A program made the translations under genes and the position numbers. Below, piece after piece: positions 10,870-25,985 of a stretch of DNA of 28,953 bases; the first letter of the stretch is position 1, and the number at the start of each line of letters is the position of its first letter. Below the pieces are notes generated by a model that was not told where the DNA came from, searched no databases, and was given only the letters and a program-made list of their open reading frames with translations. Source of the stretch: a virus. Location of the stretch: IMG/VR virus record IMGVR_UViG_3300047388_000113, positions 1 through 28,953 of that record; one strand, 5' to 3'.

Positions 10870-11059
10870 TTCCCACCTCCTTCAAAGCAATCTTGATTAC
10901 TTCCTGAAGCACCTTGGCCTGAGCGACGGTAACCAGATGGTCAATGGACTTGTTGTTCTCGGAGCAAGCGGTACAGTTCTCCTGATTACATCCACTCATC
11001 CGCTCCAGCACGTCATTCTTCGCGCGCGTCAGCGCGTCCTCTCCCTCGAATCGCTTCAT
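10853..11059 (-). CDS. Hypothetical helical protein with cysteine cluster, 68 residues
   Basis: Begins MKRFEGEDALTRAKNDVLER, then CNQENCTAC (C24, C29, C32) and a helical second half (SIDHLVTVAQAKVLQEVIKI). The cysteine cluster may bind a metal. ATGA overlap joins it to the helix-turn-helix gene upstream, and GGAGGAAGGTAGC gives a good ribosome site. It overlaps the next gene by 17 bp. Function unknown; a partner or modulator of the regulator is possible. Confidence 0.7.
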   Translation of the reverse strand: MKRFEGEDALTRAKNDVLERMSGCNQENCTACSENNKSIDHLVTVAQAKVLQEVIKIALKEVGNDLIP

Positions 11060-11427: not shown

Positions 11428-11641
11428 GCGTTCCTCCTTCAATTCTCTTATCCTCTGGTAGAAGTAAGTCAACGAGCGGCTGGCCACACTCCTCCGGAAC
11501 TGATAGAACTCCGGCGCAGCTGTCACCGCAGAATACTACGATGTGCCACTCCTTATGCTTCGCTCCCTTCTCCACATGGAGCCGCGTGATACACGGAGGA
11601 GTTAGGGACTCCGTCAGCGCGTGGAAGAAGGTCCGCTCCAT
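11408..11641 (-). CDS. Hypothetical protein, 77 residues
   Basis: MERTFFHALTESLTPPCITR start, then HKEWHIVVFCGDSCAGVLSV and a charged tail. Three cysteines could bind metal. It follows the membrane gene upstream by a TGATATG junction and runs 20 bp into the regulator gene. There is no strong ribosome site, so it is probably coupled. No family is recognised. Confidence 0.62.
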   Translation of the reverse strand: MERTFFHALTESLTPPCITRLHVEKGAKHKEWHIVVFCGDSCAGVLSVPEECGQPLVDLLLPEDKRIEGGTRETDQG

Positions 11642-11642
11642 A

Positions 11643-13510: not shown

Positions 13511-13512
13511 GG

Positions 13513-13803: not shown

Positions 13804-13910
13804 CGGTCAGTTCTCCATTTCTAGGGTTTTCGCTACTGGTGGCGTCCGCCACTCCGATAACAATACGCGTCACAGCGTTAAAAGTAAAGGGTTTCCGGAA
13901 AGATTTTTCA
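13804..13910 (-). promoter_or_regulatory. Promoter-leader cassette P1
   Basis: Minus-strand promoter with -35-like TTTACT (13883-13888), 17-bp spacer and -10-like TATTGT (13860-13865). The expected start of transcription falls right at the 5' arm of a hairpin GTGGC-GGAC-GCCAC (13839-13852), followed by GTAGCGAAAACCCTAGAAATGGAG and the ATG. The block CCCTTTACTTTTnACGC is shared by four such units in the window. The bases upstream (AAATCTTTCCGG) also resemble the other copies. Confidence 0.75.
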
Positions 13911-13923
13911 CGGCTTTCCTAAC

Positions 13924-13940
13924 TGGTGTAATTCCAACAG
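13924..13940 (-). promoter_or_regulatory. 17-bp upstream box, copy 1
   Basis: TGGTGTAATTCCAACAG is present here and again at 16127-16143, 36-37 bp upstream of the -35 boxes of P1 and P2. Reads as the imperfect dyad TGTTG-GAATTA-CACCA on the transcribed strand. Probably an activator or repressor site. Confidence 0.6.
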
Positions 13941-13990
13941 GTTATGTGAAAAGTCTGTTTTATGGCCTCTAGGCGCTGATTTAGCCCCAT

Positions 13991-14017
13991 TCCGGCTCCC
14001 GATATAGCGGAGCCGGA
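13991..14017 (-). terminator. Hairpin between operons, upstream of P1
   Basis: Perfect 9-bp arms (TCCGGCTCC and GGAGCCGGA) with a 9-base loop, about 25 bp after the stop of the 152-residue gene. The U-tract after it is poor (GGAATGGGGC on the transcribed strand), so termination may be partial. It has the same stem and loop lengths as the hairpin at 16171-16197 and the same position relative to the promoter cassette. Confidence 0.5.
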
Positions 14018-14039
14018 CGATCCAGCCTCCTACGCGAAG

Positions 14040-14498
14040 CTAGGTGGGTAGGCCAGCCGTTAAACGACCTCCGGTCAAGCGCTCCGCTAGGGCAGCGTCG
14101 AACTCCTCCGGGGAGTATCCGGTCAGCTGGGCGTAGAAACGAGCGGGGTGAGTGTCGGTGGGGAACAACCGAGCGCTGACGGTGGTGCCGTTGACGGAGA
14201 CGGTAACCACAGTGGCGTCTCCGCGCACTTCTTGGATCTTGATAGCGAACTTGGTACCATCAGTGTAGAGGAGCGTCACAATCCTCTCGTCCATCTCCCA
14301 CATCGCGTTCGGACCGACCATGTCCGCGACAAATGACAGCTTTGTCTTCGCGAGGACCATCTTGTCCGCGTAGCGGAGGACCGCGTTGACAATCTGGTCT
14401 GGCGTATGGTTCTGTTCATTCGGGCAGGTAAACCGTCCGCGAACAATTGACCAGTTCTCGTTGCGGCATATCGGGCACTCAATCGGTCTATTTGACAT
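14040..14498 (-). CDS. Protein with N-terminal zinc knuckle, 152 residues
   Basis: MSNRPIECPICRNENWSIVR, with C8, C11, C25 and H31, forms a zinc-ribbon-like start (CPIC..., FTCPNEQNH). The middle is helical, then a beta part (ERIVTLLYTDGTKFAIKIQE, TVVTVSVNGTTVSARLF). The last gene of the P2 operon, before the hairpin at 13991-14017. GGAGAACTGTCA is its ribosome site. No function is recognised; the N-terminus suggests nucleic-acid or polymerase contact. Confidence 0.75.
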   Translation of the reverse strand: MSNRPIECPICRNENWSIVRGRFTCPNEQNHTPDQIVNAVLRYADKMVLAKTKLSFVADMVGPNAMWEMDERIVTLLYTDGTKFAIKIQEVRGDATVVTVSVNGTTVSARLFPTDTHPARFYAQLTGYSPEEFDAALAERLTGGRLTAGLPT

Positions 14499-14715
14499 TG
14501 ACAGTTCTCCGGAGGAAGTAAACAGCTATGGCGCCTTTGCGCTTTTTGGTCATTGTGTCCTTCACGTGCGGTCGAAGTCTCTCCATCACCTCCTCCGCTT
14601 CTGCCGAGGTCCGGCAGAGAGCGGAGAGTTGCCAGCCAGGTCCGTCGCACATCGGACATTTTTGGCGCGGGACCTTCGCATGCTTCCCTGCGGCGTGGTC
14701 CTCAAACATCGTCAT
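14488..14715 (-). CDS. Protein with CxxC knuckle, 75 residues
   Basis: From ATG 14715 (ATGA overlap). Contains CPMCDGPGWQLSALC (C20, C23, C34), a helix rich in Glu (SAEAEEVMERLRPHVKDTM) and a basic end (KKRKGAIAVYFLRR). A longer frame to 14850 covers the neighbouring zinc-ribbon gene and is a shadow. Overlaps the next gene by 11 bp. Function unknown. Confidence 0.7.
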   Translation of the reverse strand: MTMFEDHAAGKHAKVPRQKCPMCDGPGWQLSALCRTSAEAEEVMERLRPHVKDTMTKKRKGAIAVYFLRRTVNVK

Positions 14716-14897
14716 GAGCGCATCCTCATCGGCACATGGAGCAAGAACTCCAGACCGCAGCTGTAGCATTTCAGCTCCGTCCCATGCCGTAGCTCGCTCA
14801 CCTCCCACATGAGCGAGCCGGAGTCTGGTTGTGCGGTCGGCTCTTTGCACTTCGGGCAGCTCACCTCGACCGCAACCACCTTCACAATTGCAAGCAT
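14712..14897 (-). CDS. Zinc-ribbon protein, 61 residues
   Basis: MLAIVKVVAVEVSCPKCKEP then a 26-residue loop and CYSCGLEFLLHVPM: cysteines C14, C17, C44 and C47 in zinc-ribbon spacing. GAGGAGCTGACCA is the ribosome site. It lies between a helical gene and the 75-residue CxxC gene. No family is recognised. Confidence 0.74.
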   Translation of the reverse strand: MLAIVKVVAVEVSCPKCKEPTAQPDSGSLMWEVSELRHGTELKCYSCGLEFLLHVPMRMRS

Positions 14898-14900
14898 TGG

Positions 14901-15185
14901 TCAGCTCCTCGTGATGTAGGCCACCACATCCGCAATCATCTGAGCGCGAACGGTGGAGTGAGTGTTCTGGTACGCGGTCCGGATCGGGTCCAGCGCTTCA
15001 TACATCGCATTCGCCTTCACATCCTTCAGCAACCGCTCCTTCGCATCCGCATCCGCGCGGAACTCCGGAGAGTCGGACGCCACGGCTGCTTCGAGCTTGC
15101 GGCGCCGCGTCGTGCTCGCGTTGGCTTTGATGCGGCGAGCTACGGCATCTTGGTAGGCCTGCGGGTTGCGGATGTCTTCTCTCAT
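14901..15185 (-). CDS. Helical protein, 94 residues
   Basis: From ATG 15185 after GGAGAACTGACCAA. Mostly helix (NPQAYQDAVARRIKANASTT, RRRKLEAAVAS, ADAKERLLKDVKANAMYEAL), strongly charged, with RRRK in the middle. May bind nucleic acid or oligomerise. No family recognised. The leader in front of it carries a hairpin and GTAGCGAA box like those of the promoter cassettes. Confidence 0.72.
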   Translation of the reverse strand: MREDIRNPQAYQDAVARRIKANASTTRRRKLEAAVASDSPEFRADADAKERLLKDVKANAMYEALDPIRTAYQNTHSTVRAQMIADVVAYITRS

Positions 15186-15248
15186 TTGGTCAGTTCTCCT
15201 GTTCGCTACGGGAAGGCGCGCGGTCATTCGCCGCGCGCCGTTCGATCC
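15186..15248 (-). promoter_or_regulatory. Internal leader: hairpin, GTAGCGAA box and ribosome site without promoter
   Basis: Between two genes of the P2 operon the transcript has a perfect 9-bp hairpin (15215-15223 with 15231-15239, arms GGCGCGCGG and CCGCGCGCC, 7-base loop), then TTCCC, GTAGCGAA and AGGAGAACTGACCAAATG. The order hairpin, GTAGCGAA, ribosome site is that of the P1-P3 leaders, but no TTTACT/-10 pair lies upstream. It may be an RNA processing or translational control element. Confidence 0.6.
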
Positions 15249-16007
15249 TTACGCAACCACTTCTTCGGTCAACGGCTTGCCGAGGAGCTTCCAGCCCAAC
15301 AGCGTCTCGAAGTGCTCAACCTGCTGCTTCTCGCGCCACACCAAGTTCGACAGCTGCGAGACTTCCTGCTTGGTCTTCTCGACTGCGGCGGTGAGCGGGA
15401 ACTTCTTGGTCCAGACCTTCATCGCGGCTCTGTAGGTGGCGACTTCTTCAGCGAAAGGAGCTTGGCTAGCGTAGCGAGTTCTCGGAGCGTGCGGCATCTC
15501 GGTGTAAGCATTCCGCTCAACTTCCCTCTTGTAGTTGTTGCCATACTTCGCGGCCTGTGCGCTCTCGTGAGCTGTCGTCGCGTTCGCCAGCTGCTCTTCC
15601 AGTCTCGCTAGATCGCCGCGAGCTACGCCCAAGTATGCGTTCGCCAGCATCTGGTCAATTTCGAGCGGAGCCTTGCCGACGCATGGGCACTCGTTGAAGA
15701 TGTAGCCATCGCCAGGGCGCGTGTAGCCATGGAGAACCATCACACCGTCTTGGACGACCTGCGAGTTGCCGCAGAACTGGCAGTGACCACGGTGGCGGAG
15801 CCGACCTTCCACCTGCGTTACGGAGTAGACGCTGACGCTCTGATACGATCCGTTGCCGACGATCTTGCCGGAGAAGCCAGGCCGCGCGTTCACTTCGGCC
15901 ACCGTCGCTGCCAGCCACTCGCGGCGAGCTTTCGTGATCTCACGAATCTCGCGCGGTGGGTAGAGGTCCTCAACCTTCTTGGTCTTGGTCTTCGTCGCTG
16001 CGGTCAT
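15249..16007 (-). CDS. Conserved phage-type protein with HC-xx-C and CPC cysteines, 252 residues
   Basis: First gene of the P2 operon. After a Lys/Thr-rich start comes an N-terminal helix, then the core GRLRHRGHCQFCGNSQVVQD, MVLHGYTRPGDGYIFNECPC: H75, C76, C79 and C107, C109 in a pattern I recall from conserved phage and proteobacterial proteins ('GHCQxCG...lalHGY.rpg.G...g.C.G'). The C-terminal half is coiled coil (LARLEEQLANATTAHESAQA, VEKTKQEVSQLSNLVWREKQ). Probably a metal-binding protein with a dimerising tail. Function unknown. GGAGCACTAAG precedes the ATG. Confidence 0.78.
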   Translation of the reverse strand: MTAATKTKTKKVEDLYPPREIREITKARREWLAATVAEVNARPGFSGKIVGNGSYQSVSVYSVTQVEGRLRHRGHCQFCGNSQVVQDGVMVLHGYTRPGDGYIFNECPCVGKAPLEIDQMLANAYLGVARGDLARLEEQLANATTAHESAQAAKYGNNYKREVERNAYTEMPHAPRTRYASQAPFAEEVATYRAAMKVWTKKFPLTAAVEKTKQEVSQLSNLVWREKQQVEHFETLLGWKLLGKPLTEEVVA

Positions 16008-16115
16008 CTTAGTGCTCCAGTTCTGAGGTTTTCGCTACCTGCGCCGTTCGGCGCTTCTAGGATATTACGAGCCAGAGCGTGAAAAGTAAAGGGTAGGAAG
16101 CAAAGATTTTCAACA
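16008..16115 (-). promoter_or_regulatory. Promoter-leader cassette P2
   Basis: TTTACT (16085-16090), 17-bp spacer, TAATAT (16062-16067), hairpin GCGCC-GAAC-GGCGC (16041-16054) at the expected 5' end of the transcript, then GTAGCGAAAACCTCAGAACTGGAG and the ATG of the 252-residue protein. Upstream TTGAAAATCTTTGCTTCC matches the other copies. It has the best -10 of the four. Confidence 0.8.
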
Positions 16116-16126
16116 TTTTCGCTAAG

Positions 16127-16143
16127 TGGTGTAATTCCAACAG
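16127..16143 (-). promoter_or_regulatory. 17-bp upstream box, copy 2
   Basis: Identical TGGTGTAATTCCAACAG to 13924-13940, 37 bp upstream of the P2 -35. Both are followed by related TTTAGCCCC stretches, so the whole terminator-box-promoter block looks duplicated. Confidence 0.6.
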
Positions 16144-16170
16144 TTTAGCTTTAGCCCCTAGAGGCAGAAA

Positions 16171-16197
16171 GGCTCCGCACCGGAATGATGCGGAGCC
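16171..16197 (-). terminator. Intrinsic-terminator-like hairpin upstream of P2
   Basis: Perfect 9-bp arms GGCTCCGCA and TGCGGAGCC with a 9-base loop, followed on the transcribed strand by TTTCTGCC. The U-run is short but present. It would end the transcript that carries the genes at 16342-16853 before P2 starts the next one. Confidence 0.65.
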
Positions 16198-16341
16198 CCG
16201 CCTGACGTTCCACTAGCGTTTCCTACCCAACGCAAAAATACAATGACGATCCCTTCAATTGTGCGAACCAAACTGCTTCTAGCTTACGACATAATCCTCC
16301 GTCTGTTGGTACAGGTCCAGCCTAGCTCCGATAAATCTACT
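16198..16341. other. Gene-free stretch between terminator and 80-residue gene
   Basis: The gap from 16008 to 16341 holds P2, its upstream box and terminator; the remaining 144 bp contain no convincing gene. One oddity: GTCGTAAGCTAGAAG on the transcribed strand (about 16271-16285) resembles the P3 -10 region GTCGTAATGTACTAGAAG, so it may be a decayed promoter copy. An open frame starting TTG with a hydrophobic stretch (EGIVIVFLRWVGN) runs through the hairpin but has no ribosome site. Confidence 0.4.
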
Positions 16342-16584
16342 CTACCACCGCTCCTCGGGGAACTCCCTCCGGAGAGCCGCAAACGTCTTCTTCAGCGGAC
16401 GATCTAGCTCAGTCGCGTCGTCCAACGTCAGCTCCCGTCCGAACTGCTCAATGAACCAAGCTCTCATCTCCGAGCGACCCACACGCTGCTCCGGTAGCGC
16501 GCTGAGGATGTCAGTGCTCGGCGTCCGCTCACGGAAGCGCCGCGCGAACTCCGCGACATAGGCACTCCGCTCGGAGCGGGTCAC
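16342..16584 (-). CDS. Hypothetical charged protein, 80 residues
   Basis: Starts at GTG 16584 (GTGA overlap). Helical throughout (ERSAYVAEFARRFRERTPST, MRAWFIEQFGRELTLDDATE, KKTFAALRREFPEERW) with many Arg and Glu. It is the last gene of the P3 unit before the hairpin at 16171-16197. No family is recognised; a small DNA-mimic or adaptor cannot be judged from composition alone. Confidence 0.68.
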   Translation of the reverse strand: MTRSERSAYVAEFARRFRERTPSTDILSALPEQRVGRSEMRAWFIEQFGRELTLDDATELDRPLKKTFAALRREFPEERW

Positions 16585-16853
16585 TTGGAGAACTCCGCGA
16601 CGTCATTCACCAGTACCGTTCCCGTCACCGGATGAACCTTGGTCGGCCACGCCGCAAAGAACTTCCAGCACTCGTTGTGGGCGAGGTGCGTGTACCAGTG
16701 GACGTTCCGTACCTCGGTGCTCAGCTTCCGATTCTTATACTGAGCAAAGTGATAGTCAGAGGCTCGCTTGTGAGCCTGCTCTAGTTCCGGAGTCATGATC
16801 ATGGCTACTTCCCTCCAATGATGACGAGTGTGACCTGCGAAGGTTTTTGCCAT
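16581..16853 (-). CDS. Hypothetical protein, 90 residues, first gene after P3
   Basis: Begins MAKTFAGHTRHHWREVAMIM behind GGAGCCGCAA. A second in-frame ATG at 16802 (MIMTPELEQAH) has an even better site, GGAGGGAAGTAGCC, so a 73-residue form is possible. The body is helical with many aromatic and histidine residues (RNVHWYTHLAHNECWKFFAA) and ends in a hairpin (VHPVTGTVLVNDVAEF). No family is recognised. Confidence 0.68.
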   Translation of the reverse strand: MAKTFAGHTRHHWREVAMIMTPELEQAHKRASDYHFAQYKNRKLSTEVRNVHWYTHLAHNECWKFFAAWPTKVHPVTGTVLVNDVAEFSK

Positions 16854-16960
16854 TTGCGGCTCCAGTTCTAAGGTTTTTCGCTACATGCGCCGTTCGGCGC
16901 TTCTAGTACATTACGACCGAGAGCGTGAAAAGTAAAGGGGTTTATACCAATTATTTCTCA
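16854..16960 (-). promoter_or_regulatory. Promoter-leader cassette P3
   Basis: TTTACT (16931-16936), 17-bp spacer, TAATGT (16908-16913), hairpin GCGCC-GAAC-GGCGC (16887-16900), then TGTAGCGAAAAACCTTAGAAC and TGGAG before the ATG at 16853. Its upstream part reaches the stop of the nuclease gene at 16958, so no terminator separates them and read-through from the replication operon is possible. Confidence 0.78.
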
Positions 16961-17392
16961 CAATTTCATAAGTGCCTTTAATATCAACACTTTAGAGAAC
17001 TCCGGACCGAAGCGAACTTGGGCCACTTCGAGGAGCGCGGGACGCGCCACCAGCCCGAGGTACTGGCTCGCCGCGTACCCTTCAAACAGCAGATACTCGC
17101 GGCGCGGGTTGTGGACGCGGAGGAGGACAAAGACAGAGCCGCCTGCTCTGCGGCGGGTCCGCCACCATTCGCGCTGGACCTCGGTGACGTGTTCGATCCT
17201 CACTATAGTATCGTCATGCGCTGGCCACCGCTCAATGTCCTTCAGCTCCAGCCATCCCTCTCCTCTGGATCCATTCCAGCAGTAGTTGACATCTGGAGTT
17301 CCTTCATTGACGCGATTCTCGACGCGCTCCAAATGTCCGAACGCGCCGACCTCCTTGCGCACTAGGTCCCACAGGCTTGCTTCCTTACCCAT
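16958..17392 (-). CDS. PD-(D/E)XK nuclease (VRR-NUC or resolvase-like)
   Basis: 144 residues from ATG 17392, which overlaps the upstream stop as TGATG. Motif GTPDVNYCW (P33, D34) and GEGWLELKDIE (E49, K51) give the PD...ExK catalytic core, with the N-terminal helix (SLWDLVRKEV) and a preceding ENRVNEG turn. The later helix VQREWWRTRRRAGGSVFVLL and strand YLLFEG are typical of phage VRR-NUC-type nucleases. It would cut branched or damaged DNA in recombination or replication. It ends the polymerase operon and overlaps P3 with its last codons. Substrate is inferred from the family. Confidence 0.85.
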   Translation of the reverse strand: MGKEASLWDLVRKEVGAFGHLERVENRVNEGTPDVNYCWNGSRGEGWLELKDIERWPAHDDTIVRIEHVTEVQREWWRTRRRAGGSVFVLLRVHNPRREYLLFEGYAASQYLGLVARPALLEVAQVRFGPEFSKVLILKALMKL

Positions 17393-17574
17393 CAGAGTAT
17401 CCCGCTCCCCCGCATTTTGCGGATGGTGATGCGACACCGATTACAAGTCACATTGATACGGACCTCGCGCCAATGTGACTCAACTGTTTTGCCGCAGTAA
17501 GTCCTGCCGTGGTCGTCTACAGGAATTGCGTGAGCACTGTGCGAGTCGCGATGGGCTGGGACAACGGGCTCCAT
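17392..17574 (-). CDS. Small zinc-binding protein, 60 residues
   Basis: From ATG 17574 (a GTG directly before it could also serve). Reads MEPVVPAHRDSHSAHAIPVD and on to RTYCGKTV, NVTCNRCRI: C27, C44 and C47, plus His residues near the start, in a pattern common to small phage proteins ('H...g.t.CG......vtC..C'). The GGAG nine or ten bases upstream is acceptable. Longer frames to 17682 run into the HD gene. Function unknown. Confidence 0.7.
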   Translation of the reverse strand: MEPVVPAHRDSHSAHAIPVDDHGRTYCGKTVESHWREVRINVTCNRCRITIRKMRGSGIL

Positions 17575-17608
17575 CACGATGAATCTCCGCGAGCCTTTGA
17601 AGGTTGTG

Positions 17609-18343
17609 TCAGAGCGTGACACCGGAGTCCGTGATTGGAGTTCGAGACTGAGCAGCGGTCCACGTATCGTCCGAGCCATCACGGTGTTGCTGTACCCAGT
17701 CGTTCATATACTTCTTCAGATCGGTGAACCAAAGCTCCTCGCGCTGGCGCCACCGAGCCTCGTGCTCATAGCTAATCTCGCGCCGATTCTCGCCAGCTTG
17801 GCGTCGCGTCAGATCCATTATCATGTACTCTCGAATCTCGCCAGTGGCTCGAACAAAGGGCAAGTAGAGAATGCGAGGTGTGAGCACAAAGCTGTATTTG
17901 TCCGCGAGGCAGAGGAGCGAAGGCTGAGCACCGCTAGCTTTTGCGAGGTAGCGCGAGTGATACAGAACGAAGTAATACCAGCCAGGTCCAAACACGCTCC
18001 GGAGGATCGCGGCGCCAGTGTAGGGATGGCGCTCTCCGCTCGGGTCATCCATCTTCTCCTTGCCGATGTAGCCAATGTCGTGGAGGAAGAACGCGAGCCA
18101 CAGCCTCGGGTCCTTCAGCGAGACATAACCAACATAGCGGTCGATGACTGGCTTCCAGCCGTACAGCGCGTGCCAAGCCTTCGCAACAAAGAACCAATGC
18201 CAAAGGAAACAGTGCGCTCCATATAGAACCGAGCGCGTGCCCATGCTCGCGTTACGGACTCTCCGCAGCAGCAGCCCCAACGGTATCCCTATCATCAGCC
18301 CCAGTGTTATCAGATAGCCCATCGATGCCCATTTGCTTGTCAT
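17609..18343 (-). CDS. Membrane-anchored HD-domain hydrolase
   Basis: 244 residues from ATG 18343. The N-terminal YLITLGLMIGIPLGLLL is a membrane span followed by RRVR. The rest is an HD phosphohydrolase: a first His-rich helix (YGAHCFLWHWFFVAKAWH), the HD pair in WLAFFLHDIGYIG (H88, D89), GERHPYTGAAIL (H106), FVLYHSRYLA (H129) and SLLCLADKYSF (D148). HD proteins remove phosphates from nucleotides or cyclic dinucleotides; the substrate here is unknown. This start lies 92 bp inside the polymerase gene; a start at 18244, 7 bp after the polymerase stop, would omit the anchor. Each has only a modest ribosome site, so the membrane anchor is not certain. Confidence 0.82.
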   Translation of the reverse strand: MTSKWASMGYLITLGLMIGIPLGLLLRRVRNASMGTRSVLYGAHCFLWHWFFVAKAWHALYGWKPVIDRYVGYVSLKDPRLWLAFFLHDIGYIGKEKMDDPSGERHPYTGAAILRSVFGPGWYYFVLYHSRYLAKASGAQPSLLCLADKYSFVLTPRILYLPFVRATGEIREYMIMDLTRRQAGENRREISYEHEARWRQREELWFTDLKKYMNDWVQQHRDGSDDTWTAAQSRTPITDSGVTL

Positions 18344-21239
18344 CTTTCACCTTCCGCTTACGCGGTGTCTTAGGTTTGTACTTCTCCTCTAACGCATTGA
18401 ACAGCTCGGGATGATCCTGCGTGGAGGGAGCCGCGTCCTCCATAGGGAGCTTGAGCCAGCGCCGCACAAGGACCACCCTCCATCCGTCGCTCTTGATAAT
18501 CCCTTTCCACAGGTACCACTCTCCAATCCTACCTTCCTCCACGAGCGGTTTACCGAGCGTCGCGTATAGTTCGCGCTGAATCTTTACGATGATTGATCCT
18601 GTGTCATCCTCCACAATCATGTTCAGGAACTGCGAATTGCCCTTGATCATCCGACCTCCGCGCTTCACTACGCTCTGATACTCGTTCAGATCGCGGAGAT
18701 TCTTTTCCATCAACCTACCAATGAAGATGTATTCGCCAGGCTCACTCGTAATGTCGGAGATATAGGTGAGGTTGCCGGAGAGGATGTTGTGATCCTTTGG
18801 ATTCTTGTACCAGTCACCATAGCGACGCTCTGCCTCGAAGATGTCGTCAAAGGGTGTGCGAGGCTGGGCTAGGAGCTTTGCTTGGCCAGGTTGGTAACCA
18901 ATATTGGCTCGGCGTCTCCGGATAACGTCCTCCGCTTTGCTCTTGCCCATGCCCTTGATATTGGTGAGACCTCCGAGGAGCTTCCCATCTACCACGCTCC
19001 AATTTACATCGCTTCGGAGCGGGTCAACAGGTACAAACTCGAAACCTTCCTTCACTAACTCGCGGAGGAGCTTGACAGGCTGGTCGTCATCCTTCGGGTT
19101 ACGCAAACACGCTGCCGCGAACTCTAGCGGATAGTGAGCCTTGAGCACGGCGCACCAGTAGCTGATAAGTCCGTAGGATACAGCGTGGCTCTTATTAAAC
19201 GCCCACGATCCAAATGTGCACAGCTTCTCCCAAATGCGCCGCGAGTCCAGCGGCTCAATCCCGTTCTCCTTCGCGCCGACCTTGAAGCGCTCCCAGTACT
19301 GATTGAAGAACTCCTCACCGAGAGACTTACTCATGGCGCGGCGAAGCTGGTTGACATCCTCCCAGTTTAGTTTGCCGAGCACACGACACATGGACATCAC
19401 CTGCTCTTGGTAGATGACGGTGCCGAACGTCTCGTCAGTCAGTGGCTCCGCGAGCTTGTGGATGTAGGTGACGGGCACCTTCCCCGTCCGACGCTCAATG
19501 AACTCGCTTGCGGCTCCGCAGTGAAGCGGACCAGGCCGAGCGAGAGAGGTAATGGCAACAATGTCATTGAACTCGTGCACCTTCATCTGGCGCGTTAGAA
19601 TCTGGAGCGCGTAACCCTCGAACTGGAAAATGCCGCTGTACTTCTCGTCATTGAAGATTTCAAATGCCTTCTGGTCGTCCAGCGGATACTCCACCAGCCA
19701 CTCACGATCCTTTCCAATTTGGTCGAGAGCGTCTTGCAAGACACTCAAAGTCCGGAGTCCCAGTGCGTCAATCTTGAGGAGGTTTAGGACCTCGGCATCC
19801 TTCTTGTCTATGCAAGAGACACCGTGCTCAGACACACTGCAATAATTGCGGATCGGTTCATTAGATAGAACCACTCCTGCGGCATGCTTTCCGGTGTTAG
19901 TGGCGTGGCCTTCAAGCTCGCCTGCGAGAGCGATACCTGGATACTTAGCAAGGAGAGCTTTGCCGATGTCCAAACCCTCAAGGGTGTCTTTAATACAGAA
20001 GGTGGCTCTAGCGTCGCCACCACTTCTCTCAACAATAGCGCCTTTGACATCTTTGATCTCCCATTCGGGGATGCTCAATTCCTTCGCGACATCACCCAGT
20101 GCTGATTTGGCTTTGTACCGACTGACCGTGCCAAGTCTTCCAACTCTATCGGCTCCGTACCTCTGTTCAAGATACGGAAACAGGAGGTCACGCTTAGTGT
20201 CTTGGAAGTCAATGTCGATGTCAGGTAGATCAGCCCGAGTAACATCAATGAAACGCTCGAACATAAGATCATGACGTATGGGATCCACATCCACAATGCC
20301 AAGTAGATAGCACACGAGACTACCAGCACTGCTTCCCCGAGCAGGGCCCACGAGCATTTGCGTCTTTGCCCAAGTGACGAGGTCCGCGATAACATAGAAG
20401 TAGTCCTCAAAGTTTTTGGAGGTGATCATCTCTAGCTCACGATCTAAACGAGCTTGATATTCGTCATTCCATTCGAGCTTGCGTGCTGAAATGCCCTCGA
20501 CACACATCTGCCGCAAACTCTTCAACTTCTCCGGTGCCACAATCTCCGCGCGTGGTAGCTTCGCGTTGCAGTCGTCCGCAATCGTATGCGTCAACCGAAA
20601 GTGCTCGTCCTTGGCCTCTGGGATTGCGCTCCGCAGTTCCCACTCGCTCGCTATATGGGTGATGGTCGTCCTGCTATCCCGATTCTGCCATGCGAGGACC
20701 TCATATGCTGCGGAGTCCTCGGGACGCGGATGTGTGTTGTCGCAGCAGACCACCTTCGGATAGGGAAGGTCTACGGCGCGCTTATTCCATGGCGAGCTTC
20801 GAGGGGAGAGGATGAGTGCTAGTCGGGTCCGTCCGTTCGGCAAGAGGTCCATCCTTGCATTTTCCCCGACTAGCACCCACAAGTTCTCCGAGACCTCGCA
20901 CATCTGCTTGTAGGAGATACGCGGCACGTAGTAGAATTGATCATTGGCCTGCGACACCAGCTGGTACATCTCCCTTAGCCCGTCATTGTTACGCGCGAGG
21001 AAGATGAACGGAGTTCCTACAGGCTTGCTTCCCTTGTCGAGCGTGAGGCACACTAGTAGCTCCGCGCCGAAGATTGGCTTGATGCCGAGCTTCTTAGCCT
21101 CCTTTGCGAATGGCGCATGACCCCAAGTTCCGAGGTCGGTGATGGCCATAGCTCCTCCGGTAGCGAGCGCCAACACCTGCTCCATTCGCCCGTAGGCTTT
21201 CCGGAAACTGTACTCAGTTCTAATGCGAAGGTGAATCAA
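18252..21239 (-). CDS. dnaE: DNA polymerase III alpha subunit (family C replicase)
   Basis: 995 residues, starting at TTG 21239 (GGAG seven bases upstream; TTGA overlap). Domains: a PHP domain at 1-200 whose ligand positions are degenerate (HLRIRTEYS, ITDLGTWG); palm with GPARGSSAGS (298-307) and PDIDIDFQ (D342, D344), and the third catalytic Asp in KIDALGLRTL (D491); fingers including FGSWAFNKSHAVSYGLISYW (676-695); a helix-hairpin-helix (GGLTNIKGMGKSKAEDVI, about 756-773); an OB fold (about 835-930) and a Lys-rich, low-complexity tail. It is shorter than E. coli alpha (1160) and lacks a clear tau-binding domain. With the exonuclease at 21897-22430 it would form a phage replicase core. Confidence 0.96.
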   Translation of the reverse strand: MIHLRIRTEYSFRKAYGRMEQVLALATGGAMAITDLGTWGHAPFAKEAKKLGIKPIFGAELLVCLTLDKGSKPVGTPFIFLARNNDGLREMYQLVSQANDQFYYVPRISYKQMCEVSENLWVLVGENARMDLLPNGRTRLALILSPRSSPWNKRAVDLPYPKVVCCDNTHPRPEDSAAYEVLAWQNRDSRTTITHIASEWELRSAIPEAKDEHFRLTHTIADDCNAKLPRAEIVAPEKLKSLRQMCVEGISARKLEWNDEYQARLDRELEMITSKNFEDYFYVIADLVTWAKTQMLVGPARGSSAGSLVCYLLGIVDVDPIRHDLMFERFIDVTRADLPDIDIDFQDTKRDLLFPYLEQRYGADRVGRLGTVSRYKAKSALGDVAKELSIPEWEIKDVKGAIVERSGGDARATFCIKDTLEGLDIGKALLAKYPGIALAGELEGHATNTGKHAAGVVLSNEPIRNYCSVSEHGVSCIDKKDAEVLNLLKIDALGLRTLSVLQDALDQIGKDREWLVEYPLDDQKAFEIFNDEKYSGIFQFEGYALQILTRQMKVHEFNDIVAITSLARPGPLHCGAASEFIERRTGKVPVTYIHKLAEPLTDETFGTVIYQEQVMSMCRVLGKLNWEDVNQLRRAMSKSLGEEFFNQYWERFKVGAKENGIEPLDSRRIWEKLCTFGSWAFNKSHAVSYGLISYWCAVLKAHYPLEFAAACLRNPKDDDQPVKLLRELVKEGFEFVPVDPLRSDVNWSVVDGKLLGGLTNIKGMGKSKAEDVIRRRRANIGYQPGQAKLLAQPRTPFDDIFEAERRYGDWYKNPKDHNILSGNLTYISDITSEPGEYIFIGRLMEKNLRDLNEYQSVVKRGGRMIKGNSQFLNMIVEDDTGSIIVKIQRELYATLGKPLVEEGRIGEWYLWKGIIKSDGWRVVLVRRWLKLPMEDAAPSTQDHPELFNALEEKYKPKTPRKRKVKDDKQMGIDGLSDNTGADDRDTVGAAAAESP

Positions 21240-21421
21240 GTGGTGTCTCCGTTCTGTAGTCTTCTGGTGAGCGTGAACTCAATCTCTCGAATCTGCTTTA
21301 GTATGGACCTCTCGCCTGCGCGAGGAGTCGTGAAAATCTTTTGCTTGAGGATGGCCAGTTCTGCTCGAAGCTCGGCGCTCGTCCGCTCGTCATCAGCGCT
21401 CGAATACTGGCCACCCTTCAT
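21236..21421 (-). CDS. Coiled-coil protein, 61 residues
   Basis: From ATG 21421 (ATGA overlap, AAGGAG upstream). After MKGGQYSSADDERTSAELRA the protein is one long helix (ELAILKQKIFTTPRAGERSI, LKQIREIEFTLTRRLQ). It sits immediately before the polymerase, and its stop overlaps the polymerase TTG start, so the two are made together. It may be a small polymerase accessory, but nothing in it shows that. Confidence 0.72.
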   Translation of the reverse strand: MKGGQYSSADDERTSAELRAELAILKQKIFTTPRAGERSILKQIREIEFTLTRRLQNGDTT

Positions 21422-21561
21422 TTCCACTCCTTACGCTCAGCATCTTCCTCACGAGCTTCCTTACATGGGCATGGATAAAAACCAACATATGTCGGTTCAC
21501 CATCCCACCTAGCAGGACAAGGTGTCAGCTTCCTTCCGCAATCAGGGCAGCGCTTTGTCAT
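21418..21561 (-). CDS. Zinc-ribbon protein, 47 residues
   Basis: Reads MTKRCPDCGRKLTPCPARWD, then FYPCPCKEARE and a charged tail (EEDAERKEWK). C5, C8, C15, C31 and C33 can form a zinc ribbon. ATGA overlaps at both ends and AGGAGGAGGAAAA upstream show that it is a real gene although very short. It is the third of three tiny cysteine-pair genes in a row before the polymerase. Confidence 0.72.
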   Translation of the reverse strand: MTKRCPDCGRKLTPCPARWDGEPTYVGFYPCPCKEAREEDAERKEWK

Positions 21562-21704
21562 TTTTCCTCCTCCTCGGTCCCACACGGCTTACAGAGCAAC
21601 TGGCCAGGCTCCACCTTTGAGTAAGCTGCCCAGTCACCTTCTTCGATTGGATCCAAACAATTTGCACAGCGCGAACGGAACTTGCACCGGAACCAATTAA
21701 GCAT
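21558..21704 (-). CDS. Zinc-ribbon protein, 48 residues
   Basis: MLNWFRCKFRSRCANCLDPI, then WAAYSKVEPGQLLCKPCGTE: C13, C16, C38 and C41 (with C7) in zinc-ribbon order. It starts within the last codons of the preceding gene (8-bp overlap) and ends in ATGA with the next. Overlapping longer frames in this region are rejected because three consecutive small frames share start/stop overlaps and cysteine pairs. Confidence 0.7.
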   Translation of the reverse strand: MLNWFRCKFRSRCANCLDPIEEGDWAAYSKVEPGQLLCKPCGTEEEEK

Positions 21705-21900
21705 TGATCAATCCCGTCCGGAGGATTGTGAAGCGCTTCCACTTCTTCATCCGCGTCGGCGCTGCGCTCTTTGGCTTCTGGCGGTGCGACTGATACCAGC
21801 GGTGGCCACAGGAGCAGCGGCAGCGGCGATTGCTCCGCTTGTGATCCTCGGCGCTGAACTGGCATTGGTGGAGGTGGAGCGGGTTGTGGGAATGTTTCAT
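21697..21900 (-). CDS. Cys/His-rich basic protein, 67 residues
   Basis: From ATG 21900 (ATGA overlap with the exonuclease stop; AAGGAGAACCTCAT upstream). Reads MKHSHNPLHLHQCQFSAEDH then RRCRCSCGHRWYQSH, with C13, C27, C29, C31 and many His residues, followed by a strongly basic tail (RQKPKSAAPTRMKKWKRF). It may bind zinc and nucleic acid. No family is recognised. Confidence 0.7.
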   Translation of the reverse strand: MKHSHNPLHLHQCQFSAEDHKRSNRRCRCSCGHRWYQSHRQKPKSAAPTRMKKWKRFTILRTGLINA

Positions 21901-22430
21901 ATGAGGTTCTCCTTGCGGCACCACTTGACAATGTCCACGAGCGCGAACACATCATCCATCGCGCGGTGCTTCTGAGCGAGAGGCTTGCCCATTGCCTTCG
22001 CGTAAAGCTCTGTCATATGGAGTCGGTGGCCTTCGAGATGGGCTGTGGCCTCGACCGTGCAAATTTGCACCGGAGGCCAAGGGAACTTTGTGGTGCGAGC
22101 TAGGCGAGCTAGCTCCAACTGGAGCATGTCATGATCAAAGGAGCAATTGTGCGCCACCATCGTCCGCTCTCCGAGGAAGAACTCCACGAGGTCATTCAGA
22201 TAGGCGCTGAACGGTTTGGCATCCTTGAGATCATCATCCGTCAGTCCAGTGATGTCGGTGATGATCTTGTCGAGCGGGATGCCAGGGTTGCACTTGAAGT
22301 TGATCTCCTTGTAAGGCTCGAAGCTCGGGTCAAGTTTAACGGCAGCAAACTCGATGATGTGCGGCTGCTGGGGGAGAGGAAGGGACTTGCTCTTGATCAG
22401 TCCGGTAGTCTCTGTGTCGAATACTATCAC
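21897..22430 (-). CDS. DnaQ-like 3'-5' exonuclease (proofreading subunit)
   Basis: 177 residues from GTG 22430 (GGAGGAGTTGAC; GTGA overlap). All DEDDh motifs are present: ExoI FDTETTG (D5, E7), ExoII HNCSFDHDML (D99), ExoIII KHRAMDDVFAL (H155, D160). The segment DITGLTDDDLKDAKPF is also typical of epsilon/DnaQ proteins. Since the polymerase at 18252-21239 has a degenerate PHP domain and cannot be expected to proofread itself, this enzyme is the natural candidate. The two genes are separated only by four tiny ORFs. A DNA-repair or RNase T-like role is the alternative. Confidence 0.93.
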   Translation of the reverse strand: MIVFDTETTGLIKSKSLPLPQQPHIIEFAAVKLDPSFEPYKEINFKCNPGIPLDKIITDITGLTDDDLKDAKPFSAYLNDLVEFFLGERTMVAHNCSFDHDMLQLELARLARTTKFPWPPVQICTVEATAHLEGHRLHMTELYAKAMGKPLAQKHRAMDDVFALVDIVKWCRKENLI

Positions 22431-22720
22431 GTCAACTCCTCCAGCATCGCGCCATACACGATCAAGTCGTGTGCCGAGTCCGCGTGCCCAGTGTTACCGC
22501 GCGCGGTGTAGCGGCAAATCTTCGAGACGATCATATTCACTACCCCAAATTTAGCGAAGTCCTCGGGAGAGAGAAGGGTGAGCCCATGTGGATAGATTGC
22601 CGCCATAACTGGTCCATGACGAACATATGTGTCGCCATAAACCTTACCACGTTTACGGAAGGTCACCGAGGCCCAAGCAAGATTGTCGAGCGCTCTGTTG
22701 ATTCTTTTCTTCTTCTTCAT
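22427..22720 (-). CDS. All-alpha NTP-pyrophosphatase-like protein (DUF6378/MazG-like)
   Basis: 97 residues from ATG 22720 (TGATG junction). After a basic start (MKKKKRINRALDNLAWAS), the order KVYGDTYVRHG, VNMIVSKICRYTARG, DSAHDLIVYGAMLEEL follows that of DUF6378 proteins ('r...YG......m...Ki.R........Ds..D...Y..l'), related to the MazG/dUTPase all-alpha group that hydrolyses nucleotide triphosphates. This would fit its place among ThyX, HAD phosphatase and replicase genes. The usual EExxD metal motif is not evident, so enzymatic activity is unproven. Confidence 0.7.
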   Translation of the reverse strand: MKKKKRINRALDNLAWASVTFRKRGKVYGDTYVRHGPVMAAIYPHGLTLLSPEDFAKFGVVNMIVSKICRYTARGNTGHADSAHDLIVYGAMLEELT

Positions 22721-23217
22721 CAGTAAGCCCCAGGTTGATTTTGGAAACACGTCAATCCGCCTTTGCGCCAGAAGGCCACCATTTTGTCGCGGTCCTCTAG
22801 TACAAAGCTGATATTCCTGAACGGGAGCCCAGCATCCGTCGCTAGCTCTCCCTTTACGATTGTGTCCGGTCGGTGATCACCTACGGCGCGCATGTGAAGC
22901 TCGTCATAGGGGATGCCATGCTTTACTAGCCACTCCTCTGTCTGCGGTCGGTAGTCATCAGAGCGTCCGGTGATGATCATGATGCGATGGTGCGGCATGT
23001 GCGAGTGGACCATCCGTGCCAGATAGCACTCCGCTTCCTTCGGCGTGTCGTGGATACAGTACATATTGAATGACACCCAGTCCTTCTCCTCTGCGTAACG
23101 GAGCCGATGCGTTACGTCCGCGAGCGTGCCGTCAAGATCGAAGACAAACCATAACTGTTCGTCCATGGGTGTGGCCTCGCGGACTGCCTCCCATTGCTCT
23201 GCGGTCAGGTTCATCAT
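22720..23217 (-). CDS. HAD-family phosphatase (polynucleotide-kinase 3'-phosphatase-like)
   Basis: 165 residues. HAD motif I FVFDLDGTLADVTHR (D27, D29), motif II IMIITGRSDD, a motif III lysine in TIVKGELATDAG, and motif IV FVLEDRDKMV are in order; the cap is small. The form resembles the phosphatase half of T4 polynucleotide kinase and phage nucleotidases, here without a kinase domain. It would remove 3' phosphates from DNA or RNA, or phosphate from nucleotides. ATGA overlap with ThyX, in the nucleotide-metabolism operon. Confidence 0.88.
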   Translation of the reverse strand: MMNLTAEQWEAVREATPMDEQLWFVFDLDGTLADVTHRLRYAEEKDWVSFNMYCIHDTPKEAECYLARMVHSHMPHHRIMIITGRSDDYRPQTEEWLVKHGIPYDELHMRAVGDHRPDTIVKGELATDAGLPFRNISFVLEDRDKMVAFWRKGGLTCFQNQPGAY

Positions 23218-24008
23218 TTGGTTGGCGCTCCTTGTGCTGGTCTCGCCTCATAGCGCGTGATCTGCCACAGCTGCTGAATCTCCTCGCGAGTCCGCGCGTC
23301 GCCACCATCCCACGCGTCGCCAGTGTCCGCATTGAACACCGCTCCCTTAATCGGGCATTCCATGAAGTTCGGGAAGGCGCAGACTCCGAGCGCGGCGCAA
23401 TGGACACGGATGAATGGCTCCGCCCAAGGGTGGACCTCTATCACCCGCTCGCGCATCGCCCGAAACACATCCTGATACTCGCCCTGCGTCCTCGTGCACA
23501 AGCGCACCTTCGCCATCTCGGAGAGCGTCCGGAGCGAGAACTTGCCGACAATGTTGGTGGCAATGTTGGTGGGAAGAACTCCGCGCGCGTCTTGCGGAGG
23601 GACGCCATCTTCAATCATAAGCTGGTATCCGGATTGGATCAGCCTCATTGTCGTCCGATACTGTGACGCGGCGCTCGACTCTTCATCACTGAAGGACTCT
23701 GGTGTGATGTAATCAAACCCGCTCATGTCCACGGTCCGCTGCGACTGTTGAGCGTAGCTCCCTTGGCGAGTCCGAACGAATTGATGAGTGAAGGCGCGCG
23801 ACACCTCGTCAATTAGGAAGGTGTAGTCAACAAACTCCCAGCTGCTTTGGATCGTCCCACGCATGTAGTCCAGCTCTTTCTGCTTCCGTTCCGGAGGCCA
23901 AGCCTTTATCTCGTCCAGTAGGCCAGGCTCCATCGTCAGACGCGTCTGCTTAGTCATCAGCAGCAATTCCAGCGCGTCCGGAGTATAGCTAAGCAAAGTT
24001 ACTTTCAC
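23214..24008 (-). CDS. thyX: Flavin-dependent thymidylate synthase (divergent)
   Basis: 264 residues from GTG 24008 (GTGA overlap, GAGGAGG upstream). The ThyX motif is present as RTRQGSYAQQSQR (79-91), with S84, S89 and R91 conserved, as is ARGVLPTNIATNIV. The family motif RHRxxS usually has His at position 80, here Thr; the upstream 'EH' histidine (His53 in Thermotoga) is Phe in SSWEFVDYTF. The dUMP-contact arginine region (KVRLCTRTQGE, R169) is kept. ThyX makes dTMP from dUMP with methylenetetrahydrofolate, FAD and NADPH. The changes could mean an altered mechanism or another pyrimidine substrate, or may just mark a phage subfamily. Confidence 0.9.
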   Translation of the reverse strand: MKVTLLSYTPDALELLLMTKQTRLTMEPGLLDEIKAWPPERKQKELDYMRGTIQSSWEFVDYTFLIDEVSRAFTHQFVRTRQGSYAQQSQRTVDMSGFDYITPESFSDEESSAASQYRTTMRLIQSGYQLMIEDGVPPQDARGVLPTNIATNIVGKFSLRTLSEMAKVRLCTRTQGEYQDVFRAMRERVIEVHPWAEPFIRVHCAALGVCAFPNFMECPIKGAVFNADTGDAWDGGDARTREEIQQLWQITRYEARPAQGAPTK

Positions 24009-24313
24009 AGTTCTACATCCTCCTCTGGTAAGACTTTGGATTGTTTCCGCTTCCTCTTGGCATGCTTCTTCGCAGCCTCGTCTCTGAAGTTCTTTTTGCT
24101 GGATCCAATTTTCTCCTTGGGGTTGTGATATTCCGGAGTGTTGCAGAGCGCCACGCAGTCGGGACAAAACGGTTGCGGAGGAAATGGCGGCTGTGCAATC
24201 CGAATGGGTGTGCCTTCGGGCTTGGACTTCATACATGACCAGCAGTATGGAGCTTTCGGTGTTGTCTCCGGTCCGAAGGTGTAGCGCACTGTCACCAGTA
24301 GCTCCTCAGACAT
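24005..24313 (-). CDS. Zinc-ribbon protein with basic tail, 102 residues
   Basis: From ATG 24313 (GGAGACATT upstream; 8-bp overlap with the oxidoreductase gene). MSEELLVTVRYTFGPETTPK, then CWSC (C24, C27) and CPDC (C50, C53) around a Pro-rich loop, and a strongly basic tail (KKNFRDEAAKKHAKRKRKQS). A zinc-ribbon plus basic tail suggests nucleic-acid binding. Its GTGA overlap links it with ThyX. Confidence 0.75.
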   Translation of the reverse strand: MSEELLVTVRYTFGPETTPKAPYCWSCMKSKPEGTPIRIAQPPFPPQPFCPDCVALCNTPEYHNPKEKIGSSKKNFRDEAAKKHAKRKRKQSKVLPEEDVEL

Positions 24314-25241
24314 AATGTCTCCGTCGAGAAAAGGAGGAGCGCTGGTCAATGAACCGTTCGATGACCTCGACATCATGCACAACGTCATCCAGCAGAATCT
24401 GGCGCCAAGTGGCGAAGCGACCGAGGCTGTAAATGTTGTAGCGGTCCGACATCGCGAGAATAAAGCGCTGGCGCTCCTCCTCCGGTATCGGCAGGAGCTT
24501 CCCGAACTTCTGATGCTTTATCTCGGCCACGCCAAAAGTGTTCTTGGATAGCCCGAAGAAGAACAGCGCGGTGAAGATGTGTGAGTCAATTCTCCCTTTG
24601 TCCGGTTGCTCCGCGTATTCGAGAATGAGCTGTGAGCCTGTGATGCTGGCGCGATAAAATGGCACATCTGGGCCAGGAAAGTAGATGGTCTGATACAAGT
24701 TTACCGGAGGGGAGATAATGCGGACGCGTGCGCTCCAGATTGGTTTGTAGCGGAAGTTCGGCATGTCCTCCCAGTCCGCCATCACTGCGAGCGCTGGCAT
24801 GGGGATGGTGCTGATGATCGGGTCGGAGTCCGGAGAGCGCAGCTGCACTTCCTCCTTCGCCAACACGGCTCCGTATCCGATGGAGATGCCGCGCGCCAGT
24901 GTCTCAATGAAATCGTCTGGAGCTATGTAGCGCTCCCCTCCGGATAGATTGAGGATGCTTCGGCTCATTGCCTCTCCCGAGACCTTGAGCGAATATGCGT
25001 TGGCGTCAGCGAGCGTGGCTTCATTGCGGAGCAGTCCGTCCCACGCCACTGCCTTCTGAACCTCGACGCGAGTGAGCCGCTGACCGACTGCTTTGCCGAC
25101 CGCGTTAGATCGGAAGCGGAGGAGAGCGCCGTGGTTATCCGGCAGTTTTTCTTGAGCCTCGTGCACGAAAGGTTGATGGCGGCGCATCATCTGCGCCGCC
25201 ATCAGGCCAGCCATGCCAGCTCCGTAGATGCGGAGCGCCAT
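24306..25241 (-). CDS. FAD-dependent oxidoreductase, Rossmann type
   Basis: 311 residues from ATG 25241. The N-terminal dinucleotide-binding fold has LRIYGAGMAGLMAAQ (G7, G9, G12) and the acidic residue E28 at the end of strand 2. The segments DNHGALLRFRSNAVG, ATLADANAYSLKVSGEAMSR and ERYIAPDDFIETLA are features I recall from a phage protein family annotated as FAD oxidoreductase or likened to UDP-galactopyranose mutase; its reaction is not established. It is encoded just before ThyX, another FAD enzyme, so a linked step in nucleotide or flavin chemistry is possible. The longer frame to 25304 overlaps the upstream gene and lacks support. Confidence 0.82.
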   Translation of the reverse strand: MALRIYGAGMAGLMAAQMMRRHQPFVHEAQEKLPDNHGALLRFRSNAVGKAVGQRLTRVEVQKAVAWDGLLRNEATLADANAYSLKVSGEAMSRSILNLSGGERYIAPDDFIETLARGISIGYGAVLAKEEVQLRSPDSDPIISTIPMPALAVMADWEDMPNFRYKPIWSARVRIISPPVNLYQTIYFPGPDVPFYRASITGSQLILEYAEQPDKGRIDSHIFTALFFFGLSKNTFGVAEIKHQKFGKLLPIPEEERQRFILAMSDRYNIYSLGRFATWRQILLDDVVHDVEVIERFIDQRSSFSRRRHYV

Positions 25242-25242
25242 A

Positions 25243-25818
25243 CTAGGCGCTCTTGACTTCGACAAACTTATGGTCGATGTCCCACTGGAGGTGCTTCGGC
25301 TCACCGCCAGCTTCGATATACGTCTCGTAGAGCATGCCGCTGGTGATCAGGTCGAAGGCTTTGAAGCCGTGGGTGCCCTTCCGACGCGGATTGTCCTTGA
25401 CCAGTTTGTAGAGCTTCTTGCCAGCATACTTCGAGATGCGACCGCGCTGACCTTCCGGTCCATTGGCGCGCGTCTTCTTGGTCTTCTTGCCCTTTGTTGC
25501 CATGTCTCCCTCCTCGGAAGATGAAGCTATTGGAGCCGCTGGCGGAGTGCCAGGCTTGGCTAGGTACTCGATGACTGGCCAGGTCCGCTTTTCAGCCACT
25601 GCACGGTCGGAGAATTTGGTGATCGTTTTCGCGTGGCTCTCCGGCTCCGACGCGGCGATGTTGTAGAGAACTATCAGGAGTGTGGTTGGGACATCCTTCA
25701 GAGCGGTCTGAGAACTCACGCACCAGGCACCTTCGCCAATTTCGGCTCGGCGCGCGTCTGCCACTGTGGCCTTGCCGAAAGATTCCACGCGACCGTCTGG
25801 AGAGATGACGTAATACAT
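25243..25818 (-). CDS. Basic-linker protein, 191 residues, first full gene after P4
   Basis: N-terminal domain MYYVISPDGRVESFGKATVA, with a later hydrophobic strand (TTLLIVLYNIAAS). A Pro/Ser linker and Lys-rich stretch (MATKGKKTKKTRANG) lead to a C-terminal domain (KLVKDNPRRKGTHGFKAFDL, then EPKHLQWDIDHKFVEV). That last part resembles a domain seen in several phage proteins ('eNPkRkGsk...r..ly..GmT......G....l.wD..hgfi.v'), possibly DNA-binding. GGAGG for its start lies in the end of the 18-codon leader ORF. Function unknown. Confidence 0.75.
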   Translation of the reverse strand: MYYVISPDGRVESFGKATVADARRAEIGEGAWCVSSQTALKDVPTTLLIVLYNIAASEPESHAKTITKFSDRAVAEKRTWPVIEYLAKPGTPPAAPIASSSEEGDMATKGKKTKKTRANGPEGQRGRISKYAGKKLYKLVKDNPRRKGTHGFKAFDLITSGMLYETYIEAGGEPKHLQWDIDHKFVEVKSA

Positions 25819-25820
25819 AA

Positions 25821-25877
25821 CTAACCTCCGAGGAAAGTATGGGAGCCTCTGGCTAGCCTTTCGATTTGAATGGTCAA
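25821..25877 (-). CDS. Possible leader peptide, 18 codons
   Basis: TTG start at 25877 with GGAG eight bases upstream, reading MTIQIERLARGSHTFLGG and ending at TAG two bases before the ATG of the 191-residue protein. Its last codons contain the GGAGG of that gene. It lies directly downstream of P4, where the other cassettes start their first gene. It may couple or attenuate expression, or be a chance frame. Confidence 0.45.
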   Translation of the reverse strand: MTIQIERLARGSHTFLGG

Positions 25878-25985
25878 GTTCAGTGCTCCAGTTCTATGGG
25901 GTCGAACTACCTGATATGAATGTAGTGTGTTCGCGTCAAAAGTAAAGGGTCAAAAGCAACTAATTTTCAAGAGGGTAAAACTGGT
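25878..25985 (-). promoter_or_regulatory. Promoter-leader cassette P4 (hairpin-less variant)
   Basis: TTTACT (25941-25946) inside the shared block CCCTTTACTTTTGACGC. The best -10 is TACATT (25919-25924) at a 16-bp spacing. The leader goes straight to GGTAGTTCGACCCCATAGAA and CTGGAGCACTG; the hairpin of P1-P3 is missing. Upstream TTGAAAATTAGTTGCTTTTG matches the P2 copy. It drives the nucleotide-metabolism and replication operon. Confidence 0.68.

Follow-up and report, generated by a model that had tools for sequence, protein, structure and literature searches.

Why does one short block stand at the head of four operons in the DNA of an uncultured phage, and is it a promoter, a protein site or a copied fragment? 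The question is raised by the window, a 28,953-nt fragment (IMG/VR virus record IMGVR_UViG_3300047388_000113, positions 1 to 28,953), in which an earlier note had described four promoter-leader units; these are numbered here P1, P2, P3 and P4 by rising coordinate and are read 5' to 3' on the minus (coding) strand. With good probability, the four units repeat a single cassette by which a DnaE-encoding phage starts transcription and translation; in it, sigma70-type early/replication promoters are joined to a start-associated leader. Such switches occupy the same genome positions in relatives, so the cassette is a genuine control system, and its general type is known: functional-looking, family-wide, new in its combination of parts and not a categorically new system.

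Four blocks and their promoter geometry

The block CCCTTTACTTTTnACGC, which contains the -35 hexamer TTTACT, was found four times, exact, on the minus strand and directly upstream of an operon each time, at the places where the earlier note had put it:

13875..13891, minus strand: P1 block CCCTTTACTTTTAACGC; -35 TTTACT at 13883-13888
16077..16093, minus strand: P2 block CCCTTTACTTTTCACGC
16923..16939, minus strand: P3 block CCCTTTACTTTTCACGC; starts 18 bp past the stop codon of the upstream VRR-NUC-like gene 16958-17437
25933..25949, minus strand: P4 block CCCTTTACTTTTGACGC; starts 10 bp past the stop codon of the upstream UvrD-like helicase gene 25960-27447

No further match was found in the window at three or fewer mismatches (chance expectation 0.15), and four copies were reached by no shuffle. 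A weight matrix built from the four blocks scored P1-P4 at 29.5-30.5 bits and the next-best site of the window at 9.5; CCCTTTACTTTT was the sole 12-mer with four copies in the window, and 0/60 first-order Markov simulations gave any four-copy 12-mer. A chance repeat is ruled out by these three tests. Elsewhere the exact block was matched once in IMG/VR (L005, an unrelated phage) and at four scattered single places in bacterial genomes, about chance level by estimate, which rules it out as a widespread element. A self-controlled spacing scan of IMG/VR (block + 0-30 nt + TATWAT) placed 6/30 non-redundant matches at 8-9 nt; this excess (p ~0.01, uncorrected, spacing picked post hoc) is suggestive only.

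The block reads TTTACTTTTnACGC, its invariant part extending past the -35 hexamer by 3 nt on the upstream side and by 8 nt on the downstream side. A -10-like hexamer follows TTTACT at the 16-17 bp that had been claimed:

13860..13865, minus strand: P1 -10-like hexamer TATTGT, 17-bp spacer
16062..16067, minus strand: P2 -10-like hexamer TAATAT, 17-bp spacer
16908..16913, minus strand: P3 -10-like hexamer TAATGT, 17-bp spacer
25919..25924, minus strand: P4 -10-like hexamer TACATT, 16-bp spacer; the weakest -10 among the four

The two hexamers of P1-P4 are all spaced within the 16-18 bp of sigma70-type promoters; the -35 is in each case TTTACT and not the consensus TTGACA. This hexamer was examined in 171 noncoding regions upstream of relatives' genes, with the window left out: TTTACT stood 16-18 nt from a -10-like hexamer in 13 cases, at exactly 17 in 13/13, and in the same regions the other permutations of its letters gave at most 3 cases each (except the one-base-shifted TTACTT) and TTGACA gave 3. 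TTTACT is therefore a genuine -35 in this phage family, though it departs from the consensus.

A comparable set is that of the T4-like early promoters: sigma70-type, ahead of many early operons, with GTTTAC at -36 to -31 and with sequence preferences that differ per phage (PMC1524935). Both sets consist of repeated sigma70-type phage promoters with a -35 containing TTTAC and with preferences that vary from phage to phage; here, in contrast, C and not G precedes TTTAC in all four units, the spacer half TTTnACGC is invariant, a conserved leader and ribosome site are joined to each promoter, and the phage family and polymerase type are unrelated. T4-like early promoters are further associated with a phage Alt ADP-ribosyltransferase that modifies RNA polymerase alpha.

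Syntenic cassettes in related phages and the question of a regulator

The window has no close relatives in the phage collection, and none closer were found via the terminase or the P2 gene product; relatives were surveyed by polymerase profile (80 loci). G027, the closest at about 57% polymerase identity, carries three cassettes that read (G/C)CCTTTACTTTTCA(A/G)GA, with near-identical leaders ending CCTCTGACGGAGATTCCGACC-ATG and with AAAAAGATTTTCACCCA before. C1 lies directly 3' of UvrD, the place of P4, C2 directly 3' of VRR-NUC, the place of P3, and C3 after the HNH orthologue; no cassette is near portal and terminase. G029 (55%) has one, TTTACTTTTCCCGC, between UvrD and the orthologue of open reading frame (ORF) 25243, with a stem-loop-like GCTCGGGGCGAGC and with CGAACCCAAGAACGGGAG. 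The search of related phages that the earlier note had advised has, in short, returned equivalent cassettes at the same syntenic places, each phage with its own spelling; as these places are shared at 55-57% polymerase identity, the cassette positions are old.

Among the more distant members, the stretch that follows UvrD frequently holds a promoter with 17-bp spacing, of the TTTAC(T/A) type or another, together with a AGAAAGGA start leader; this leader is found again at several starts of a contig, with a maximum of eleven in L168. The cultured distant relatives Cronobacter phage vB_CsaP_Ss1 (L260) and Vibrio phage vB_ValP_VA-RY-3 (L261) have TTTAC-type promoters, one of which in Ss1 is exactly TTTACT-17-TATACT, and stem-loops directly after some -10s. 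Repeated promoters of a TTTACTTTT type were also found in G010 (64% GC) and G016 (55% GC), on one strand and most directly ahead of genes:

L141 (G010), 1127, 1576, 2842 and 9972: TTTACTTTT-type promoters
L142 (G016), 4989, 5584 and 6875: TTTACTTTT-type promoters

No polymerase relative was detectable in G010 and G016, so this type of -35 is not confined to the DnaE group.

If the four units were mere recent duplications of one promoter, their conservation would be uninformative on function. P2 and P3 are indeed 89% identical across 45 nt downstream of the block, and P1 and P2 80% identical across 46 nt upstream; but the flanks of P4 resemble the other cassettes at random level (27-33% identity upstream) around an invariant block, and the old positions speak against recent copying as well, so that duplication is a very improbable account. 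The same two observations bear out the proposal that the units at the operon heads form a coordinated set.

After the core, G027 has AAGA or AGGA and G029 has CCGC at the place of the ACGC that follows TTTACT in the window; the suggestion that ACGC itself is a protein site is accordingly not supported. The element that the relatives share is (C)CTTTACTTTTN, placed 17 bp from the -10, which amounts to the -35 region. ACGC is specific to this phage, as part of a phage-specific portion of the block.

Copies are uniform within a genome and different between genomes: block differences amount to 0-1/17 within the window and 1-2 within G027, and to 3 for each of the syntenic pairs P4-C1 and P3-C2. 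Such uniformity is expected either from a co-evolving phage factor or from homogenisation by recombination. In the former case the block would be the site of a phage activator or sigma-appropriating factor (a MotA-like middle system) that contacts -38 to -22 and co-evolves with it, whence the per-phage spelling. This is possible, though doubtful. It would account for an invariance that extends to both sides of the -35, for the off-consensus hexamer in all four units, for copies that are closer within a genome than to their syntenic counterparts, and for near-uniform spacers inside other phages (L168, for example, has TTTACTTAACTGCTCAAATAAGA two times); the closest relatives, moreover, have kept a tandem helix-turn-helix protein. 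However, uniform copies could also come from recombination between cassettes, and no candidate factor is tied to the site. T4 middle promoters, whose MotA box TGCTT lies 11-13 nt before the -10 (PMC1524935), likewise show a conserved box, spanning roughly -38 to -22, upstream of a sigma70 -10; the block, unlike them, contains no TGCTT, and here the -10 is held at 17 bp from an intact -35-like hexamer.

The helix-turn-helix protein had been named as a binding candidate at 11056-11427; the protein is present, and its frame is longer than that:

11056..11526, minus strand: tandem helix-turn-helix protein (Pfam HTH_31 + HTH_3), a candidate regulator only

It was detected in the window and in G027, G029, G004 and L006 (weak partial match in L010). 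In the wider group, where TTTACT promoters are still in use, it was not detected, for which reason it cannot be the general -35 reader and is disfavoured as the box's universal reader; its target may be the phage-specific part or the upstream palindrome. A bolder view, that the DnaE phages possess a promoter-leader regulon not described before, whose -35/spacer box is read by a phage-specific factor, and that box, leader and factor co-evolve to one uniform spelling per phage at conserved positions, seems rather unlikely.

The palindrome in question is:

13924..13939, minus strand: P1 upstream near-palindrome TGTTGGAATTACACCA, a candidate operator
16127..16142, minus strand: P2 upstream near-palindrome TGTTGGAATTACACCA

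It lies about 50 bp upstream of the block, and the order of P1 and P2 is near-palindrome, A/T tract such as GAAAATCTTT, block, rest of spacer, -10. A repressor operator overlapping the -35, by which early genes would be shut off later or in a lysogen, is improbable. Its footprint would span the -35, and the window does encode a Cro/CI-type helix-turn-helix protein; but the near-palindrome, though upstream of P1 and P2, is not present at P4 and aligns weakly at P3, which has no clear palindrome, the block itself is not palindromic, no integrase is among the window proteins examined, and relatives that lack the helix-turn-helix protein still have the core as a -35.

Leader, stem-loop and ribosome site

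The preferred reading, that of a promoter joined to a start-associated leader, is completed by the elements downstream of the -10:

13839..13852, minus strand: P1 predicted 5'-terminal stem-loop GTGGCGGACGCCAC, with two compensatory changes against P2/P3
16041..16054, minus strand: P2 predicted 5'-terminal stem-loop GCGCCGAACGGCGC
16887..16900, minus strand: P3 predicted 5'-terminal stem-loop GCGCCGAACGGCGC
13825..13836, minus strand: P1 leader element GTAGCGAAAACC
16027..16038, minus strand: P2 leader element GTAGCGAAAACC
13813..13822, minus strand: P1 start-associated ribosome site AGAAATGGAG, ahead of ATG 13803 (ORF 13513-13803)
16015..16024, minus strand: P2 ribosome site AGAACTGGAG, ahead of ATG 16007 (ORF 15249-16007)
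16860..16869, minus strand: P3 ribosome site AGAACTGGAG, ahead of ATG 16853 (ORF 16581-16853)
25886..25895, minus strand: P4 ribosome site AGAACTGGAG
25821..25877, minus strand: possible TTG-start 18-codon minicistron of P4 (MTIQIERLARGSHTFLGG), its stop 2 nt before the ATG of ORF 25243-25818

The stem-loop (14 nt) starts exactly 8 nt past the -10 in P1-P3, at the predicted RNA 5' end; it is common to P1-P3, as is GTAGCGAAAA(A)CC, and neither was in the earlier note. The stems, GTGGC/GCCAC in P1 and GCGCC/GGCGC in P2/P3, are two compensated pairs apart, which fits an RNA hairpin better than a fixed-sequence protein site. In P1 and P2 the stem-loop is followed by GTAGCGAAAACC, then by (C/T)AGAA(C/A)TGGAG, then by ATG 6-9 nt on; P3 is a full cassette except for a clear palindrome, and P4 consists of the block and a shortened leader (CAGGTAG...CATAGAACTGGAGCACT), without stem-loop. 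The ribosome site AGAA(C/A)TGGAG was present in all four cassettes, as had been claimed, and at none of the other gene starts listed for comparison. In P4 it precedes the TTG-start minicistron and not a long gene; the spacing between the minicistron and ORF 25243-25818 would allow translational coupling.

A known RNA family is ruled out, no Rfam family being matched in the window. In the relative L019, GGGTTTACTTTTT at position 287 resembles a terminator, being a hairpin followed by a T tail; an intrinsic terminator is ruled out for the window, where the copies are without a matching upstream arm.

The leader was compared with two known systems. SAS/ESAS, the start-associated elements of cluster K mycobacteriophages, are a repeated ribosome-site motif with the 13-bp consensus GGGATAGGAGCCC (PMC3203893), and a similar start-associated set occurs in Microbacterium cluster EF phages (PMC7302621). 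Common to these and to the present leader are a repeated ribosome-site motif conserved beyond Shine-Dalgarno pairing (AGAA(C/A)TGGAG four times; numerous copies of AGAAAGGA in relatives), an upstream inverted repeat that only some copies have (P1-P3, not P4), and variation of the motif between phage clusters. Here, in contrast, the unit contains a recognisable promoter, occurs in only four copies in the window and has a short stem-loop at the predicted RNA 5' end; and because the leader differs from the cluster K consensus, the cassette would work like SAS without being a member of that set. The 5'-terminal stem-loop mRNA stabilisers of the ompA type, as the work of Emory, Bouvet and Belasco (1992) is cited in PMC3997798, resemble P1-P3 in the position of the stem-loop at the predicted very 5' end of the transcript; they differ in that P4 and most cassettes of relatives have none, and a stabilising effect here is putative. 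Judged by analogy, the cassette resembles T4 early promoters and SAS/ESAS and is a member of neither. The statement that the regulon is not recognised from known phages holds for its exact sequence, the P2 cassette having 0 matches in the phage collection, and not for its kind; no description of a TTTACT phage regulon in DnaE phages was found in the literature searched (subscription journals not covered).

A course of events may be proposed on this basis. A host sigma70-type RNA polymerase would recognise the family-specific -35 TTTACT within CCTTTACTTTTN, 17 bp from the -10, as the geometry suggests, and RNA would start about 7 nt past the -10, near 13853, 16055, 16901 and 25912. The RNA of P1-P3 would open with the GC stem-loop, which likely shields the 5' end from decay, to judge by its position, the compensatory changes and the ompA precedent; it would then run into the conserved start-associated ribosome site driving the first small gene of each operon. 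Four copies would give a common promoter strength and timing to the early and DNA-replication region, the early timing being suggested by gene content. An optional phage factor reading the spacer is possible and not needed.

Several points weigh against this interpretation. P1-P4 were not flagged by a consensus promoter scan of the window, because TTTACT is off-consensus, and P4 combines a weak -10 at 16 bp with the lack of a stem-loop. Sigma70-type recognition is deduced from geometry. Folding energy of the whole leader only modestly beats shuffles (z -0.7 to -1.2; first 35 nt of P1-P3, z -1.1 to -3.0), so that the argument for the stem-loop is carried by the compensatory changes; only two distinct stems occur among the cassettes, and most other relatives' cassettes have no hairpin. 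In favour of the stem-loop, strong hairpins downstream of the -10 were found in L186 and in phage Ss1.

Other start-associated motifs were observed in the group. GAATACT stands just upstream of many starts in Ss1 and VA-RY-3; a CAACCCAGAAAGGAACCG-type start leader occurs six times on the minus strand of the relative L020 (G008), 10209-13842, and two of these leaders lie under a promoter-like repeat of 100 nt with 97% identity.

Genomic setting and meaning of the cassettes

The minus strand carries nearly all genes of the window: DnaE-type DNA polymerase, exonuclease-like, UvrD-like helicase, VRR-NUC-like, HNH nuclease, AAA ATPase, the tandem helix-turn-helix protein, terminase and portal (the exonuclease and VRR-NUC names were taken from sequence inspection and known phage gene order, not from a family search). 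P4 is the head of the replication genes, and P3, P2 and P1 are the heads of subsequent small-gene operons, that of P1 including the helix-turn-helix and ATPase genes; all four cassettes are ahead of the replication/early arm, and the structural-gene part is without the block.

Three further features of the window were recorded:

7203-7458: nested inverted repeats GTCCTATTAGCT.../...AGCTAATAGGAC and CTATATAGGG.../...CCTATATAG around ~170 nt of noncoding, AT-rich DNA that separates the terminase-side genes from the early arm; possibly a late control region, an origin or a small mobile element
5942-5952, 8857-8867, 14977-14987 and 26059-26069, minus strand: 11-mer CCGATCCGGAC, four copies, with a one-mismatch copy at 6506; as many copies in 0/100 shuffles
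24306-25304: PHROG 4828 protein (unknown function) in the replication module, kept in several larger relatives examined; its gene adjoins that of ORF 23214-24236, which by gene order corresponds to an Ss1 gene annotated as thymidylate synthase

With these results an orphan repeat becomes a family-wide feature that can be used for searching, and a phage group that has received little study now has its apparent early/replication promoters defined. Cassettes that are uniform within and different between genomes at fixed positions constitute a natural test of regulator-site co-evolution against recombinational homogenisation; and as the cultured distant relatives vB_CsaP_Ss1 and vB_ValP_VA-RY-3 carry a similar promoter architecture, this architecture is laboratory-testable.

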